Below, piece after piece: positions 4,160 through 15,449 of a stretch of 39,310 nucleotides of DNA (positions are counted from its first letter, which is position 1; each line of letters begins with the position of its first letter). Position numbers and translations under genes: made by a program. Source of the DNA: an uncultured Gammaproteobacteria bacterium. GTDB taxonomy: Bacteria > Pseudomonadota > Gammaproteobacteria > Immundisolibacterales > Immundisolibacteraceae. The stretch covers positions 1 through 39,310 of the forward strand of contig CAJXVN010000004.1 of assembly GCA_913060775.1 (NCBI GenBank). The letters run 5' to 3'. The notes beneath the pieces are model-generated. The model was not told the origin of the DNA. It was given only the letters and a program-made list of their open reading frames with translations, and searched no databases.

Positions 4160-5608
4160 ATGGCTACCGAATCAGAAGAAATTGACCGGTATATCAGTCG
4201 TGAATACGAGCACGGCTTTGTTACCGATATCGAACAGGATACGTTTCCCCCGGGTCTCGATGAGAGTGTCGTGCGGGCTATTTCAGCGAAAAAGAACGAG
4301 CCAGAGTTTATGCTCGAGTGGCGGCTGGAAGCGTTTAAGATCTGGCAGCAGATGGATGTGCCGGAGTGGGCCCATGTTCACTACCCGGACATCGATTTCA
4401 ACTCGATTAGCTACTTTTCTTCGCCCAAGGCTGATTCGGATAAGCCGCAGAGTCTGGCCGATGTCGATCCCGAGCTGTTAGAAACTTACGAAAAACTCGG
4501 TATTCCGCTGCACGAAAGGGCGGCGCTGGCTGGTGTGGCGGTCGATGCGGTGTTCGATAGCGTCTCCGTGGCCACTACCTTTAAAGACAAGCTTGCGGAA
4601 GTTGGCGTGATTTTCTGCCCGCTTTCCGAGGCGGTCCATGATCACCCTGAACTGGTAAAAAAGTATCTGGGTAGCGTGGTGCCGCTGGCGGACAATTTCT
4701 ATTCCGCGCTTAATGCTGCGGTCTTCTCCGACGGTTCGTTTGTGTACATTCCGAAAGGGGTGCGCTGTCCGATGGAGCTTTCCACCTATTTTCGTATTAA
4801 TGCTCTCAATACCGGACAGTTTGAACGCACTCTGATCATTGCTGATGAGGGTTCACATGTCAGCTATCTTGAAGGCTGCACCGCGCCGATGCGTGACGAA
4901 AATCAACTGCACGCGGCCGTGGTTGAGCTGGTGGCGATGGACGATGCACAGATTAAATATTCCACCGTTCAGAACTGGTACCCCGGCGATAAGGATGGCA
5001 AAGGCGGTATCTACAATTTCGTTACTAAACGGGGCGATTGTCGGGGTGAGCGTTCAAAAATCTCCTGGACCCAGGTGGAAACCGGTTCCGCGATCACCTG
5101 GAAATACCCGAGTGTGGTGCTGACCGGTGATAACAGCGTGGGTGAGTTCTACTCGGTGGCGCTAACCAATAATTACCAGCAGGCCGACACCGGTAGCAAG
5201 ATGGTACACATTGGCAAGAACAGCCGTAGCACCATTATCTCCAAGGGTATTTCTGCCGGGAAAGCCGAGAATGCATACCGCGGCCTGGTGAAGATGCTGC
5301 GCGGCGCGAACGGGGCGCGCAACTACACCCAATGCGACTCCCTGTTAATCGGTAGCCAGTGCGGCGCCCATACTTTCCCTTATGTGGAGGTACAGGAACC
5401 TACTGCTCAGGTAGAGCACGAGGCGACCACCTCTAAAATTGGCGACGATCAACTGTTTTATTGTCGTCAGCGGGGCATCGCCGAAGAAGAAGCGGTTTCG
5501 ATGATCGTTAACGGCTTCTGTAAAGAAGTATTCACCGAATTACCGATGGAGTTCGCCGTTGAAGTACAGCGCCTCCTCGGTGTCAGTCTAGAAGGAAGTG
5601 TCGGGTAA
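4160..5608 (+). CDS. sufB: Fe-S cluster assembly scaffold protein SufB
   Basis: SufB is the core scaffold subunit of the SufBC2D complex on which sulfur from SufS and iron are assembled. The 482-residue product shows family segments throughout: [65 protein letters not shown], and the C-terminal core [24 protein letters not shown] with conserved cysteines at 392 and 401. The length is typical for the gammaproteobacterial form. Start ATG 4160 is followed at once by the acidic helix of the family. It is the first enzyme gene after the regulator and lies 25 bases before sufC. No defects are seen. Confidence 0.97.
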
Positions 5609-6391: not shown

Positions 6392-7711
6392 ATGGTTGCC
6401 ACCCAAGCCAGCGCGGATAACCGCACCGCGTTTCAACAGCAGTTTGAGAATCGTAAACCCCACTTGCCGGGAGATGCTGAAGTGCGCGAGCGCGCCATGC
6501 AGCAGCTGCTGACCACGGGCCTGCCAGATCGCAAAACTGAGCGCTGGCGGTATACCCGCATAAACAGCCTCCTCAAACAGCCTCTTGAGCCGGCACAGAA
6601 GCCTGCCACGACAACGGCGACTGATCGACAGCCGTTACTGGATTCGCTGAATAGTGGCTCTGGCGCTCCGCTTCTGGTTTTTCAACAGGGCTATTTCTGT
6701 GCCGAACTGTCTCGGCTCGAAGGTCTCGGCGAGATTCAGTTTAAACCCCTGGCCGCAGCATTAGAATCCGGTGCGGTAATGCTACCGGAAGCGGCTGATG
6801 GCCGTGATCGGGCGTTTGATCAGCTCAATACAGCCCTAGTGGCTGACGGTGGCTGGTTGCAACTGCCCGCCGGTAAACATCCGTTGATTACTATTGTTGT
6901 GCTATCCGGCAGTGCGGCCGAGACAAGCTACTGGCGGTTGCTGGTGACGGCGGCAAGTCACTGCGAGGCGGAACTTGCGATTATCTACGCGGATAGCGAG
7001 GCCGACCAGGAAACCGACGGTAAGGCATATCAACTGAACAGTTCGATTGATCTCGATCTGGCGCCGAACGCGCAGGTCTCCCTGAGCCAGTTACAGCAGC
7101 AGGGTGAGCAGGCGTTTCAGGTGAGTTCTCTGCGTGCCAACTTACAGCGCGACAGCTCATTCAAATCCCATGTCCTGACGCTGGGTGGTGCCATTAGTCG
7201 CGACGATGTCGACATTGATCTGGCCGAAGCCGGTGCTCATGTTGAGTTTGATGGTCTGCAACTGACTAATGGTCGCCAGCATGCCGACCTGCACCTCACC
7301 CTTGAGCATGCGGCACCGAACTGCACCAGTCAGGTGAGTCACCACGGTCTGTTCGGTGATCACGGCAGGGGTGTTTTTAACGGCCGGGTGCATGTGCACC
7401 CCGGCGCCGACGGCACTGATTCACAGATGTCGAGTAAAAACCTGCTGCTATCTGACCGAGCAGAAATCGACGCCAAGCCGGAGCTGGAGATCTACGCCGA
7501 CGACGTAAAATGCGCCCACGGTTGCACGGTGGGTGATCTAAATCGCGACGAACTCTTTTACCTGCGCAGTCGTGGACTAACCGAGCAGGACGCGCGGGCG
7601 CTGCTGTTGAGCGCCTTTGCTGCCGCCAGTTTTGCCACGCTGGGTGGCCACTGGGGTGAGTACGTTGCCAACGCCGTTACCAAAAAAATGGAACAACTCA
7701 GCCATGAATAG
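6392..7711 (+). CDS. sufD: Fe-S cluster assembly protein SufD
   Basis: SufD pairs with SufB and SufC in the SUF scaffold and is linked to iron acquisition. The 439-residue product has a variable helical N-terminus (residues 1-110 with ERWRYTRINSLL) and the SufB/SufD beta-helix core at the C-terminal half: HHGLFGDHGRGVFNGRVHVHPGADG, KPELEIYADDVKCAHGCTVGDL and LFYLRSRGL. The conserved His-containing segment and the C-x3-C motif typical of SufD are present. It starts two bases after sufC stops, and its last codons overlap sufS by eight bases. The N-terminal half is divergent, as usual in this family. Confidence 0.95.
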   Translation: MVATQASADNRTAFQQQFENRKPHLPGDAEVRERAMQQLLTTGLPDRKTERWRYTRINSLLKQPLEPAQKPATTTATDRQPLLDSLNSGSGAPLLVFQQGYFCAELSRLEGLGEIQFKPLAAALESGAVMLPEAADGRDRAFDQLNTALVADGGWLQLPAGKHPLITIVVLSGSAAETSYWRLLVTAASHCEAELAIIYADSEADQETDGKAYQLNSSIDLDLAPNAQVSLSQLQQQGEQAFQVSSLRANLQRDSSFKSHVLTLGGAISRDDVDIDLAEAGAHVEFDGLQLTNGRQHADLHLTLEHAAPNCTSQVSHHGLFGDHGRGVFNGRVHVHPGADGTDSQMSSKNLLLSDRAEIDAKPELEIYADDVKCAHGCTVGDLNRDELFYLRSRGLTEQDARALLLSAFAAASFATLGGHWGEYVANAVTKKMEQLSHE

Positions 7712-10077: not shown

Positions 10078-10398
10078 TTAAACGGTAAAACTTTCTCCAC
10101 AGCCGCAGGTTTCTTTCGCCTGTGGGTTTTTAAAAGCAAAGGCCGAATTGATGCCATCCTGGCGATAATCCAGTTCGATGCCCTCGAGCATCGGCAGATC
10201 ATCTTTTGCCACCACCACCTCGACGCCGTCCTGATCAAACCGCAGATCATCGTCAGCAATTGATTGGGCCTGTTCTACTACGTAGCTAAAACCCGAACAG
10301 CCGGACTCCTTAACGCCGACCCGAATCGCCATGACACCTTCGGCACGGGCCAGCACCTTATTGACACGTTCAATGGCGGAGGGGGTGAGTGTAATCAT
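10078..10398 (-). CDS. sufA: A-type Fe-S carrier protein (SufA/IscA/HesB family)
   Basis: A-type carriers pass Fe-S clusters from the scaffold to target proteins. The 106-residue product has the three family cysteines: C34 in ESGCSGFSY, and C98 and C100 in CGCGESF near the C-terminus. Length is normal for SufA or IscA. It faces the suf operon and ends close to the shared terminator, so it is expressed separately from sufB-T. The symbol sufA is chosen from its position beside suf; sequence alone does not separate SufA from IscA or ErpA. ATG 10398 is the only sensible start. Confidence 0.9.
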   Translation of the reverse strand: MITLTPSAIERVNKVLARAEGVMAIRVGVKESGCSGFSYVVEQAQSIADDDLRFDQDGVEVVVAKDDLPMLEGIELDYRQDGINSAFAFKNPQAKETCGCGESFTV

Positions 10399-10791
10399 TT
10401 CAGTGTTCCCGAAAGTTAAGTATTTGGGTGGGATGGAAAGCCGCTCAGACTGGTGTTTTGAGCTTCGAAACCCCTAAAAGTTCCTGCAAGTTTACCATTC
10501 AAGCTGGCGGCGCCCATGGCTGTCTGGATCAGCTGGATTAGCCGGCCAACGCGGCCGCTAGCGGGTATTCGCTGTAACTGTCGAACTCAGACTGTTGTCC
10601 AGCATTTGGTGAATCTCAATATGCTTCTGCCATTACGCGGCGGCCACGCCTAACCATATTAAAGATTTATTTTTTCTGACCGATAAAGTCATACAAGTTC
10701 AGAGCGTTTTGCTTTTATTCAACCCTGATAGGAAATCAAAAACTATCGTGATGTCGGTCTGGTTAGCTGACGGAGGTTAATCCATATCCCC
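10399..10791. other. 393-base gap between sufA-like gene and hybrid kinase
   Basis: This stretch has no convincing gene in any frame. It must hold the sufA-like promoter on the minus strand, for which I see no strong hexamers. Toward the right it holds the sigma-28-type promoter at 10660-10686 and the kinase leader, with GGAGG at 10772-10776, 15 bases from the ATG at 10792, a rather long spacing. Confidence 0.6.
10660..10686 (+). promoter_or_regulatory. Sigma-28 (FliA)-type promoter of the kinase/cyclase unit
   Basis: TAAAGATT (10660-10667), exactly 11 bases, then ACCGATAA (10679-10686). The enterobacterial FliA consensus is TAAAGTTT-N11-GCCGATAA, so 14 of 16 positions match with the correct spacing. 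A start site a few bases further on would leave a leader of about 100 bases before the kinase ATG. This would place the unit among late flagellar or motility genes. Confidence 0.7.
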
Positions 10792-12837
10792 ATGCTCATG
10801 CAATCAGAAGAATTAACGCCGGCACGCGTTAAATGCTCCTTCCGTCCCACGGCTTTGATTACCCAGAGTCGCCTGGGCAGCACTATCCTCAGCTGGTTTC
10901 TGTTATTAGCGCTAGTGCCACTGGCGCTTGCCAGTTTTCTGGCCTATCACAAAGCCCGAGAAGTTCTGGTCAGGGAGGCCATTGAGGATTTGCATACATC
11001 TGCAAATGCCAAGGTCGATCAGATGCAGGCGTGGTTTGATTATCGATTGATGGACCTGAATAGTCAGGCTGACAATCCAGTGAACGCACGGCTATTAGGC
11101 CAGCTAAATGAGGGGTTAGCGCGCAGTGGCCAAAGTGCTGGCGAATACGTTAAGGGAACCGACTGGTCGACTCGTTTGCAGGAAAATGATGGCCATTTAA
11201 AGGCAATGCAGCAGAATTATGACTACATCGAAGATATTTATCTGATCACGAAGGACGGCGCTATTTTGTATAGCGCCGTTGACAGCGACAAACCCGGTCT
11301 GGCGCTTTTTAGCGGTGAGGCAGCGCAGAGCCGACTGGCAGCCAGTGTTAGATATTCACTGGATACGGGCAACGCCGGATTCTCTGATCTTGAATTTAGC
11401 GCCCCGACTGATCCGCTACCGACGGGCTATCTCACCGCCCCTCTGAAAAGCGCGACGGATGAGGAGGCCGGAATCATTGCGATTCAGGTTCAATTAAATC
11501 GCATTTTTCAGGCGGCTACTGGCGGCATGGATCAGCAGGCCAAGGTTCATTACCTGGTTGGCAGTGATAATTTGCTCCGGACACCCCTAACACCGGGCAG
11601 AACCGACGAAATTCTCAAGCGGCGAAGGAAAATCGACCAACTGCCTGGTGACATTGATTCGTCAGCACATCGCCATCCTGAACTCGGTGCTGAGACTGGA
11701 CTGGTGACTTATACGGGTTCGGAGGGGCAACCGGTATTCCGCATGCAACACGCGGTACCGGCGGTTAATAAAAAATGGAAGCTGATTAGCGAAATAGATC
11801 AGGCGAAAGCGCTTCAGGGTGCCAATAACCTTGCCATTACAACGCTAATATTTGTCCTGGTGACGGCAGTCATTGCGATGATAGCCGCGGTCAGGCAGGC
11901 CCGGCGCATTGTCCAGCCGATCACGAAACTAACCAGAATTACGCGTGAGTTAGCGACCGGTATCTCCCACCATCATTTCGATGTTGAAAGCGATAACGAA
12001 ATCGGTGAACTCGCTGACAGTTTTAATGAAATGCTGGCGGTGCGGCGCCATAAAGACGCAATGCTGGCCCGTAGCGATAGGGAAAGCGCAGAAGCCTTCA
12101 GCAAATTGACTGAACAGAAAACCGCCCTTGATCACCACGCGATTGTGACCACGACTGACCTGGCAGGTACGATCAAATCGGTTAATGAAAAATTTTGCGA
12201 AATCAGTGGCTACACCGCAGAAGAGTTGATTGGCAACAATCATCGTCTGGTCAATTCGGGTCACCACACCACAGAATTCTGGGCAGATATGTTTGCATCG
12301 CTGTCCAACGGAAAAGCCTGGCACGGTGAAATCTGTAACCGGGCGAAAAATGGGCATCTCTACTGGGTGGCAAGCACGATTGTCCCGATCAAGGATAGCG
12401 ATGGCACTCCTCAGAGTTACATTGCTATTCGCACGGACATTAGTGCGCAGAAGCACCTGGAAAGAACATTGGTGGCTGCCAGAGAAGCGGCCGAAGCGGC
12501 TTCGTTTGCCAAAAGTGAATTTCTAGCGAACATGAGCCATGAGATTCGTACGCCGATGAATGGGATTATCGGTATGACTAATCTCCTGCTGGATACGCCC
12601 CTCTCTGATGAACAGTTGCAGGATGGGTTAGTGATTCAACGCAGTGCCAACTCCCTGCTGGGGATCATCAACGATATCCTGGATTATTCGAAGATGGAGG
12701 CGGGCAAGCTTGATCTGGAGCCGGTTGATCTCGAGCTCGGTGAACTTCTCTCGGATATTGCCAGTACGTTAGCGTTTTCTGCGGAAGAAAAAGGCCTGGA
12801 GCTGGTGTGTCCCGCTACGGTCATCCCGATTCAGTGA
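10792..12837 (+). pseudogene. Hybrid sensor histidine kinase, N-terminal part (ends at premature TGA)
   Basis: The upstream 681 codons of a large hybrid kinase. Order: TM1 at ~32-51, extracytoplasmic sensor region at ~52-345 (dCache-like by size and position), TM2 at ~348-368, HAMP at ~367-420, PAS with PAC at ~440-553, and HisKA with FLANMSHEIRTPMNGI, where His583 is the phosphorylation site. The frame stops at TGA 12835-12837 just before the HATPase N box, after residues VIPIQ. Translation resumes in the same frame with YRADPGRIRQILNNL. Related kinases have Trp before Tyr at this place, so a single TGG to TGA change explains the break. If the stop is real, this fragment lacks the ATP-binding domain and cannot autophosphorylate. 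The start has a second in-frame ATG at codon 3. Confidence 0.85.
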
Positions 12838-12870
12838 TATCGCGCGGACCCGGGCCGTATCCGGCAGATA

Positions 12871-14496
12871 TTGAACAACCTGATTGGTAACGCCATTAAA
12901 TTCACTGAACAGGGCGAGGTGGCCGTGCATTTCAGCAAACGACCCCTGGCGAACAATCATGTTGAGATTCGGTTCGATGTCGTCGACACCGGTATTGGCC
13001 TTAGCGAAGACCAGCAGGAAAAATTATTTGATCGTTTTATTCAGGCGGATACGTCCACCACCCGAAAGTACGGTGGGACCGGACTGGGGCTGTCCATAAG
13101 TAAACAGCTGGTCGAGTTAATGGGCGGGGAAATTGGCGTGACCAGCGAACTGGGGAAAGGCTCCCGGTTCTGGTTTACGCTGCAATTACCCACCGCTGAA
13201 TTTTCGCCTGCGATGCCGGACCCCGAAGATATCAAGGGGTTACGCGTCCTGGTGGTTGATGACAACCTCACCAGCCGCAAGTTGTTTGATGAACTTCTCA
13301 CTGTCTGGAATATCGACCACTATTCGGTAGAAAGCGGTGTTCAGGCACTGGAGCGACTCAACCAGGCGGCAGCAGAAAAACGACCCTACCAGATAGCCCT
13401 GATCGATATGAAAATGCCGGGTATGGACGGCGTGCAACTTGCGCGTAAGATTATCGAGGATGGTTGTCTGGCATCCACCAAGCTCCTGCTGATGAGCGCG
13501 CAACTGCATAAGGGTGATGTCAGAAATATGTCGGAGATGGGGTTTATGGGCTATTTTCCCAAACCAATAAACCAGTCGGATATATACAACACGCTGCACC
13601 ATCTGGCCGGTATGGACGGTGCCGTTCCGGCAAAAACCAGTAGTTTGATGTTGCCCGGCAGACGAGTTAAAAAACTACCGCAGTTCAATGCTCGGGTGCT
13701 GGTTGTTGAAGACAATCCCAGTAACCAGAAAGTAGCCGCAGGGGTGCTGGAAAAACTGGGCATAGCAGTCGACATTGTTAACAACGGTGAGCTTGCTGTT
13801 TCGGCGCTGGAAACCGACGAATACGACCTGGTGCTGATGGATTGTCAGATGCCGGTTATGGATGGTTACGAAGCAGCGCGGATTATTCGTAGCGACCGCT
13901 CAAACGTGCTCAACCATGAGGTGCCAGTCGTTGCGGTTACCGCTAACGCTATGCGTGAAGATCAGCAGCGCTGTATCGACGCCGGCATGGATGGCTACCT
14001 GATTAAACCCATTGATCCGGCCAGGCTCACTGAAGCCTTTTTCCAGTTTTTGCCCGAGTCCTGTCATCCGCTGGCAACCGAGATGCAAACCGAAGGCCAT
14101 CAGCCTTCCGCCGAATCCGATGGACCGCAGACTGTGGCGGACCTGGAGGAGCATCCAGACCTGCCAGTGTTTGACCGTGGCACGATGAGTCGGCGGATGC
14201 TGGATGATGAGGAACTGGTTCGAAGCGTCGCCGAAACTTTTCTCGAAGACATGACGGATCAGTTGAATCAACTCAAGGCGCTGGTCAACGCTGAAGATTT
14301 GTCAGGAATTACTGCTTTGGCACACCGAATGAAGGGAGCATCCGCCACCGTGAGTGGGATGATGCTCAGCGAACTAGCCCGCAGACTGGAAGTCTTGGGG
14401 AAGGCGGAAGACCTGGCGGCGATTATCCGGCAGTTACCGCTGTTAGAAGTGGGATTTGCTGACCTCAAAAAGGCGATGCAGGAGCAGGTGTTATGA
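12871..14496 (+). pseudogene. Hybrid sensor histidine kinase, C-terminal part (HATPase-REC-REC-Hpt)
   Basis: This is the continuation, in the same frame, of the preceding kinase after the premature TGA. It is listed from the only nearby start-like codon, TTG 12871, which has no clear ribosome site. Domains: HATPase with the N box NNLIGNAIKF, G1 DTGIGL and G2 [13 protein letters not shown]1 with LVVDDN and phospho-acceptor Asp179 (IDMKMPGMDG); REC2 with LVVEDN and Asp324 (MDCQMPVMDG) plus Lys379; and Hpt with His485 in AHRMKGAS. All relay residues are intact, so decay is recent or the stop is an error. With the stop read through, the whole protein would be about 1,234 residues. It overlaps the next gene as ATGA. 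Confidence 0.85.
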
Positions 14497-15449
14497 ATTT
14501 ACTCATTGCAGATGACGATCCCTTATTTCGTGTGATGCTAGCGGGGATAACCAGAAAGTGGGGGTTTGAACCCACCGTCACTGGCGATGGTGTCGAAGCG
14601 CTAAAATTGCTGCAGCAGGATTTTCCGCCGAGGCTATTATTGATCGACTGGGAAATGCCTCGATTGAATGGGCTGGAGCTGTGTAAACGGGTCCGTTTAA
14701 TGCCGGGTAATGACCCGCCATACATTATTCTGCTGACCAGCCGAAACGATAGTAGCGACGTTGCCATCGGCCTGGATGCAGGTGCTAATGATTATGTTCG
14801 CAAACCGTTTGAACCGGTTGAATTCAAAGCTCGGTTGCAGGTCGGCAGACGAATGCTGGATCTGCAGACCGAGGCAATAGCAGCTCGCGCACAGCTAGTG
14901 CATCAGGCCAAGCACGATGCGCTCACCGGCTTACCGAATCGGCGAGCAATCATGAATGCGTTTGAACGAGAAATTGATCGAGCAGGCCGCCAGCAAATAC
15001 CTCTGGCGGTCGGTATGTGTGACATCGATCACTTTAAAAAAATCAACGACACCCATGGCCACCTGGTCGGTGACGCGGTATTGCATGAGGTTGCCCAGCG
15101 TATTAACTCGACACTGCGGAGTTACGACAACTGTGGTCGTTACGGTGGCGAAGAATTTCTGATTCTGGTCAATTCTGAGGAAGAAGAGGCCAAGGAAGTG
15201 TTTGAACGGCTTCGTCAGGCAGTATCGGCGTGCCCGATTGTTGTGGGTGACGTGAGTTGTCTGGTGACCATCAGTTGTGGGGTCACTGTTCTCGGTGGGG
15301 AAATTCGGGATAACAACACGATACTGGCGGCGGCTGATTCGGCGCTTTACCAGGCAAAAAATAATGGCCGTAATCGTATTGTGTTTCTGCAGGAAGCCTC
15401 ATTACCATCAAAGTCAGATAGTCTGGATGCGATCGGGCATGCCCTTTAA
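14493..15449 (+). CDS. Response regulator with GGDEF domain (diguanylate cyclase)
   Basis: This is a REC-GGDEF protein that probably makes c-di-GMP when phosphorylated. In its 318 residues, REC spans ~1-120 with acidic DDD at 7-9, phospho-acceptor Asp52 (LIDWEMP) and Lys104 (VRKPFEP). A short coiled linker leads to GGDEF at ~140-300, with the active motif GGEEF at 218-222 and an RxxD inhibitory site, RSYD (209-212), five residues before it. Both catalysis and product inhibition should therefore work. The layout matches WspR/PleD-type outputs. ATG 14493 overlaps the kinase stop by four bases, so the kinase is its likely partner. If the kinase is truly broken, activation may depend on another donor. 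Confidence 0.93.
   Translation: MNLLIADDDPLFRVMLAGITRKWGFEPTVTGDGVEALKLLQQDFPPRLLLIDWEMPRLNGLELCKRVRLMPGNDPPYIILLTSRNDSSDVAIGLDAGANDYVRKPFEPVEFKARLQVGRRMLDLQTEAIAARAQLVHQAKHDALTGLPNRRAIMNAFEREIDRAGRQQIPLAVGMCDIDHFKKINDTHGHLVGDAVLHEVAQRINSTLRSYDNCGRYGGEEFLILVNSEEEEAKEVFERLRQAVSACPIVVGDVSCLVTISCGVTVLGGEIRDNNTILAAADSALYQAKNNGRNRIVFLQEASLPSKSDSLDAIGHAL

Follow-up and report, generated by a model that had tools for sequence, protein, structure and literature searches.

FliA (sigma-28) control of c-di-GMP genes is already known from Pseudomonas, Legionella and E. coli, and the locus described here probably adds a different gene pair to these cases. In E. coli, yhjH and ycgR are c-di-GMP genes of the class 3 regulon under FliA, and 30 of the organism's 52 FliA binding sites are intragenic, only 5 of those 30 being accompanied by detectable RNA changes, according to the part of PMC4183435 used here. 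The portions of the Pseudomonas putida reports that we draw on describe FliA control of bifA, which encodes the phosphodiesterase BifA (PMC5300878), and of pp1144, pp3711 and morA, which depend on FliA only in part (PMC5026340), and a further report, also cited in part, describes the Legionella pneumophila GGDEF/EAL gene lpp0952 as FliA-dependent (PMC5655016). The FliA consensus is given as TAAAGTTT-N11-GCCGATAA in the cited parts of PMC4866697 and PMC2859248, the latter of which reports mutation of the T, A and G of TAAAG and of the CGA of the -10 element.

The present locus lies in a window of 39,310 nucleotides (the whole stretch of DNA that was analysed) from an uncultured member of the Immundisolibacterales, whose genome, G000, is a MAG of 3.06 Mb in 351 contigs and is 90% complete. 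The motif claimed in the original prediction was recovered with its coordinates, letters and exact 11-nt spacing: positions 10660-10686 read TAAAGATT-N11-ACCGATAA, which carries the consensus base at 14/16 positions and departs from it at two, and combines a TAAAG-type -35 element with a CGA-containing -10 element. All of the bases mutated in the cited part of PMC2859248 are present. The site is found in a 393-nt intergenic region between a divergent Fe-S_biosyn gene and the ORF beginning at 10792, on the correct strand and 105 nt upstream of that ORF's ATG, and the GC content of this intergenic stretch is 47%, versus 55% for the window. No other site in the window has three or fewer mismatches to the consensus (0.23 expected from shuffles). 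The possible ribosome binding site ends 15 nt before the ATG at 10792, a distance above the usual, and a second ATG follows at 10798. No sigma-70 promoter was recognised in a simple scan of 10390-10900 for this promoter type only.

Table 1. Features of the putative FliA-driven operon and its upstream boundary; positions are those of the window.
Feature	Position	Strand	Basis or remark
Divergent Fe-S_biosyn (IscA/ErpA-type) gene	10078..10398	-	Delimits the 393-nt intergenic region on its upstream side
-35 element TAAAGATT of proposed FliA (sigma-28) promoter	10660..10667	+	Sequence
11-nt spacer TATTTTTTCTG	10668..10678	+	Length as in lineage flgM, fliC and cheV sites
-10 element ACCGATAA of proposed promoter	10679..10686	+	CGA core kept; departs from consensus at first base
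GGAGG, possible ribosome binding site	10772..10776	+	Sequence reading
Hybrid histidine kinase, first half (weak dCache, HAMP, PAS, HisKA)	10792..12837	+	ORF and domain matches
Hybrid kinase, second half, same frame (HATPase_c, two REC, Hpt)	12838..14496	+	ORF and domain matches
Response-regulator diguanylate cyclase (REC-GGDEF), intact	14493..15449	+	GGEEF active-site motif, RSYD I-site-like motif

The likeness to the P. putida genes lies in the control of c-di-GMP enzyme genes by a flagellar sigma factor, reported there in the cited parts and proposed here; the P. putida genes encode GGDEF/EAL proteins or BifA, with partial dependence measured, whereas the window holds a kinase and REC-GGDEF operon known from its sequence alone. 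The resemblance to the E. coli yhjH and ycgR system, as partly sourced above, is that YcgR-type genes of the lineage also have FliA-type sites. The product of yhjH degrades c-di-GMP, whereas that of the window gene would make it. With lpp0952 the window shares a putatively FliA-dependent GGDEF gene, but lpp0952 is a dual-domain protein with no kinase gene mentioned in the portion of the report used, and the window pairs a kinase with a cyclase. Like PleD, WspR and DgcR, the window cyclase joins REC to a GGDEF domain with a GGEEF motif, its best solved-structure relatives being PleD (1w25) and a GGDEF/receiver protein (6zxb), but it falls under the cut-off of every equivalog model among the matches listed. 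A FliA-driven operon of a hybrid kinase and a REC-GGDEF protein was not found among the titles and abstracts listed by the literature searches, in which subscription journals were thinly covered.

A genome without fliA had been named as grounds for giving up the promoter; G000 does encode fliA (TIGR02479, 255.9 bits against a cut-off of 189.6), as well as flagellin and FlgM. Of the eight genomes of the order that were searched, six bear flgM, and in 6/6 of them it is preceded by a FliA-type site with an 11-nt spacer. TAAAG-type sites were found upstream of 4/7 flagellin copies in the lineage genomes, and a FliA-type site precedes cheV (identified by eye, without a family search) in the relatives G005 and G006. 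We built a lineage matrix from nine such sites of flgM, fliC and cheV in the own and related genomes, with the window site excluded. Eight came from 20 scanned upstream regions (5/6 flgM, 3/7 flagellin) and one from G005 cheV; the flgM site of G002 was omitted as a near copy of that of G001, as were the weak-site flagellin copies (L060, L061, L062 and L063) and all seven flgL regions, one of which has a site at five or fewer mismatches. A first matrix had also contained a site between flgA and flgB and a poor G001 fliC site (leave-one-out 1.8 bits).

With the nine-site matrix the window site scores 19.6 bits; the training sites themselves, each left out in turn, span 14.1-22.3 bits (3/9 higher), and in this the window site resembles late flagellar promoters of the lineage. 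In 365,631 bases, 18 forward sites scored at least 17 bits, 9 of them training sites and four others (L113, L114, L115 and L129) preselected by pattern match, versus 0 in the backward control, whose maximum was 16.4. The resemblance is weaker against genus sites alone: a genus-only matrix of eight sites gives the window site 17.0 bits versus 16.3-23.2 (1/8 lower), and in 8/8 genus sites the -10 element opens with G and its position 5 is C or T, where the window site has A at both. Per genome, simulated background is expected to reach 19.6 bits 0.77 times under a whole-sequence model and 1.79 times under an intergenic model; if promoters are taken to occupy 250 nt at each of 2500 genes, or 0.625 Mb, the expectation there is about 0.08-0.18. 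Because the score falls within the leave-one-out range and above all backward controls, we consider a FliA promoter at 10660-10686 likely on the strength of its sequence, although it is not proven.

Two of the preselected sites with high scores lie in G005, one (L114 3386-3412, 22.6 bits) ahead of an ORF truncated at the end of its contig, the other (L115 1046-1072, 22.2 bits) ahead of a STAS-domain gene. The window itself contains another FliA-type site of 19.2 bits, at 4557-4583 on the - strand, which was not preselected, lies antisense within the ORF 4160-5608 and is probably a chance match. The score of the proposed promoter fits flagellar sites, but with this antisense twin a high score is insufficient, and score alone cannot separate true from false sites.

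The same antisense site favours the main rival, namely that an AT-rich intergenic stretch resembles a FliA site by chance and that transcription of the kinase starts at a housekeeping promoter that escaped recognition, which we regard as possible but doubtful. Pattern counts lean the same way, since backward-pattern controls yield nearly as many matches as the motif itself. G000 contains 38 sites with three or fewer mismatches to the consensus versus 30 for the backward control; three of the 38 have two mismatches, two of these being within ORFs and only the window site intergenic, and for sites with at most two mismatches a Markov model predicts 2.3 per genome, versus 3 seen. With a degenerate pattern at up to one mismatch there were 7 genome-wide matches versus 11 for the control; the window site had contributed to the design of this pattern, and its three exact matches are circular. 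A strict pattern, whose R was likewise picked so that the window site is admitted, gave 20 matches over eight genomes versus 23 for the backward control, and therefore most strict-pattern matches at that level are chance. Enrichment over chance, which does not strictly define such a promoter, is thus not seen genome-wide, and the idea that the motif stands out by bare consensus was dropped, forward counts being close to those of the backward controls. Several points argue against a chance origin: only 0.0004 matches of this kind are expected in the 393-nt intergenic region alone, the strand and the distance to the ORF are right, the matrix score lies in the range of flagellar sites and exceeds every backward control, and the simple scan of the region gave no sigma-70 candidate.

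Homologues of the window kinase sensor (E < 1e-10) were found in 2/7 other genomes of the order, G005 and G006, with identities of 41% and 44-45% for the sensor and 59-60% for REC-GGDEF. The operon in these relatives, assembled from separate contigs (G005 C14 and C197; G006 C210 and C266), runs binding protein, kinase 1, REC, CheC-like, kinase 2, binding protein, kinase 3, REC-GGDEF, where "CheC-like" and "binding protein" are names given by eye. It thus contains three related hybrid kinases and two binding-protein genes and ends in REC-GGDEF (L045, L046, L047, L111 and L112). The kinase-cyclase overlap is common to the relatives and the window, but the relatives have six further genes, and in gene content the window operon is, as we read it, a short form of theirs with a different upstream region. 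The window kinase matches kinase 1 over most of its length, kinases 2 and 3 being better only at the Hpt end, and may represent the ancestral form or may have arisen when kinase 1 was fused to a later kinase.

Conservation of the motif before orthologues, proposed as a check in the original prediction, was not borne out: upstream of the first operon gene in G005 there is no FliA-type site, the best at that spacing having 6 mismatches, and only two relatives have the operon. This bare operon head also speaks for a chance match. The original prediction as a whole is partly upheld. Its FliA part holds up fairly well, with fliA in the genome, a lineage-like score and no sigma-70 candidate in the simple scan; on the other side are a site unconserved in G005 and, as set out next, a kinase that is interrupted.

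The promoter had been placed in front of a kinase/diguanylate cyclase unit, of which the cyclase stands and the kinase does not stand as one frame. The REC-GGDEF gene is intact, with a GGDEF domain (PF00990, 158.9 bits) and a GGEEF motif that RSYD precedes by five residues, and its start (14493) is overlapped by the stop of the kinase second half (14496). All domains of the HisKA-HATPase-REC-Hpt chain are present in the kinase, but the chain is interrupted between HisKA and HATPase by an in-frame TGA at 12835-12837, codon 682 of 1234. TGA ends 12/30 window genes and is therefore an ordinary stop here, and stop-codon reassignment was rejected as its cause. In another GGDEF match with a counted TGA (L099), the TGA is an ordinary gene end. 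The kinase homologues in the relatives are uninterrupted by a stop. In the 552 codons after the TGA the HATPase, both REC and the Hpt domains are intact, and therefore the change is either a very recent break in this strain or an assembly error; the kinase of the sequenced strain is thus probably split or truncated, or the stop an assembly error, and the REC-GGDEF cyclase may be without its own kinase. Several G000 contig-end ORFs, SLIHISEPTR (L044 start), VSYTHLRAHETSLHL (L043 end) and VGSEMCIRD (L026), are presumably translated sequencing-adapter artefacts, which suggests that the assembly is not clean.

These observations bear on a second rival, in which the FliA promoter works but the operon is decaying, the TGA being real, the cyclase uncoupled or poorly translated and the feedback to attachment nonexistent. 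We hold this to be no more probable than a chance match: an ordinary stop in a frame that the relatives' homologues read through fits decay, but the intact domains behind it point to a very recent change or an assembly error, and the adapter-like translations point to an unclean assembly. A third possibility, that the FliA-type site is a minor second promoter with the main control elsewhere, follows the partly FliA-dependent P. putida promoters of pp1144, pp3711 and morA with their high basal expression, as given in the cited part of PMC5026340, but is rather unlikely, no other promoter having been recognised in 10390-10900 by the sigma-70 scan.

Returning to the FliA promoter as the preferred reading, we inspected the genomic contexts of 19 sites in the lineage (18/20 strict-pattern matches and one degenerate-pattern match). 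Intergenic matches in the sense direction precede a REC-GGDEF-EAL gene in G005 and G006 and YcgR-type PilZN-PilZ, GGDEF and STAS genes in G005. The REC-GGDEF-EAL site, TAAAGATA-N11-GCCGAAAA, lies within a strongly conserved upstream block (L081/L130 in G006; L083 in G005) that is nearly identical between the two genomes. In G000 the YcgR-type PilZN-PilZ gene has TAAAGAAC-N11-GCCGATTC close upstream of its start (L011), and its G005 counterpart likewise has a FliA-type site (L086); the sequences ahead of the two genes show no block-wise alignment. A weak lead comes from a G000 GGDEF gene (C23), with a FliA-type site about 41 nt upstream of its second ATG, and from the G005 orthologue, whose FliA-type site is 92 nt upstream of the start; the two sites do not align. 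Other strict-pattern matches fall within genes, as in fliA of G004, are antisense to genes, or precede a pilin-like gene or a CBS-domain-like gene (both named by eye). The c-di-GMP genes with sites were selected after the matches were seen and without a base rate, and therefore these sites are support, not a test. Given the sites at YcgR-type, GGDEF and GGDEF-EAL genes, a link from FliA to c-di-GMP in the lineage is nevertheless plausible.

Gene order around fliA differs within the lineage. Downstream of fliA in G005 come cheY, cheZ, cheA, parA, cheW and a DUF2802 gene (L119 4898-11035); in G000 the DUF2802 gene comes directly after fliA and the cheY-cheZ-cheA-parA-cheW block is absent there (L044 7426-8963), and a G004 contig has the same fliA-DUF2802 order (L123 5029-6561). 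No MCP match was found in G000, and because this genome is only 90% complete, absence of chemotaxis elsewhere in it is unproved; the lineage seems to have kept a flagellum and lost chemotaxis. Between flgA and flgB of G000 there is a FliA-type site, TAAAGATT-N11-GCCGTTAT (L043 6839-6865), in which the -35 octamer of the window site recurs (6839-6846). Its position is similar to that of cheV in G005, but a cheV remnant was not found, and we do not take the site as a proven remnant of a cheV promoter. From the FliA and flagellin genes of G000, the missing MCP match and the missing block after fliA, one could imagine a FliA regulon turned over to c-di-GMP signalling in a flagellated lineage without chemotaxis, with a YcgR-type brake and diguanylate cyclases including the window operon, such that completion of the flagellum also sets a stopping program; we consider this improbable.

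If the promoter functions as read here, completion of the hook and export of FlgM would let FliA-RNA polymerase initiate slightly downstream of 10686; the transcript, whose untranslated leader would measure about 95-100 nt, would cover the sensor-kinase frame or frames and the REC-GGDEF gene (14493-15449). Late flagellar expression would then also load the cell with a signal-gated c-di-GMP synthase, and FliA dependence, phosphotransfer, c-di-GMP output and an effect on motility or attachment would be predicted. The motility-to-attachment feedback that we and the original prediction would infer is weakened because the kinase frame is broken and the site unconserved.

The outcome is a testable promoter and a lineage matrix, with the link between FliA and c-di-GMP unproven. 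If a c-di-GMP synthase does belong to the late genes driven by FliA, cells that swim would be primed for the sessile switch while building their flagellum. The sign would be opposite to that in E. coli and P. putida, where the FliA-driven genes in question encode phosphodiesterases. Given that the lineage has seemingly lost chemotaxis, the operon would then count among the few routes left by which the environment could act on the flagellum.
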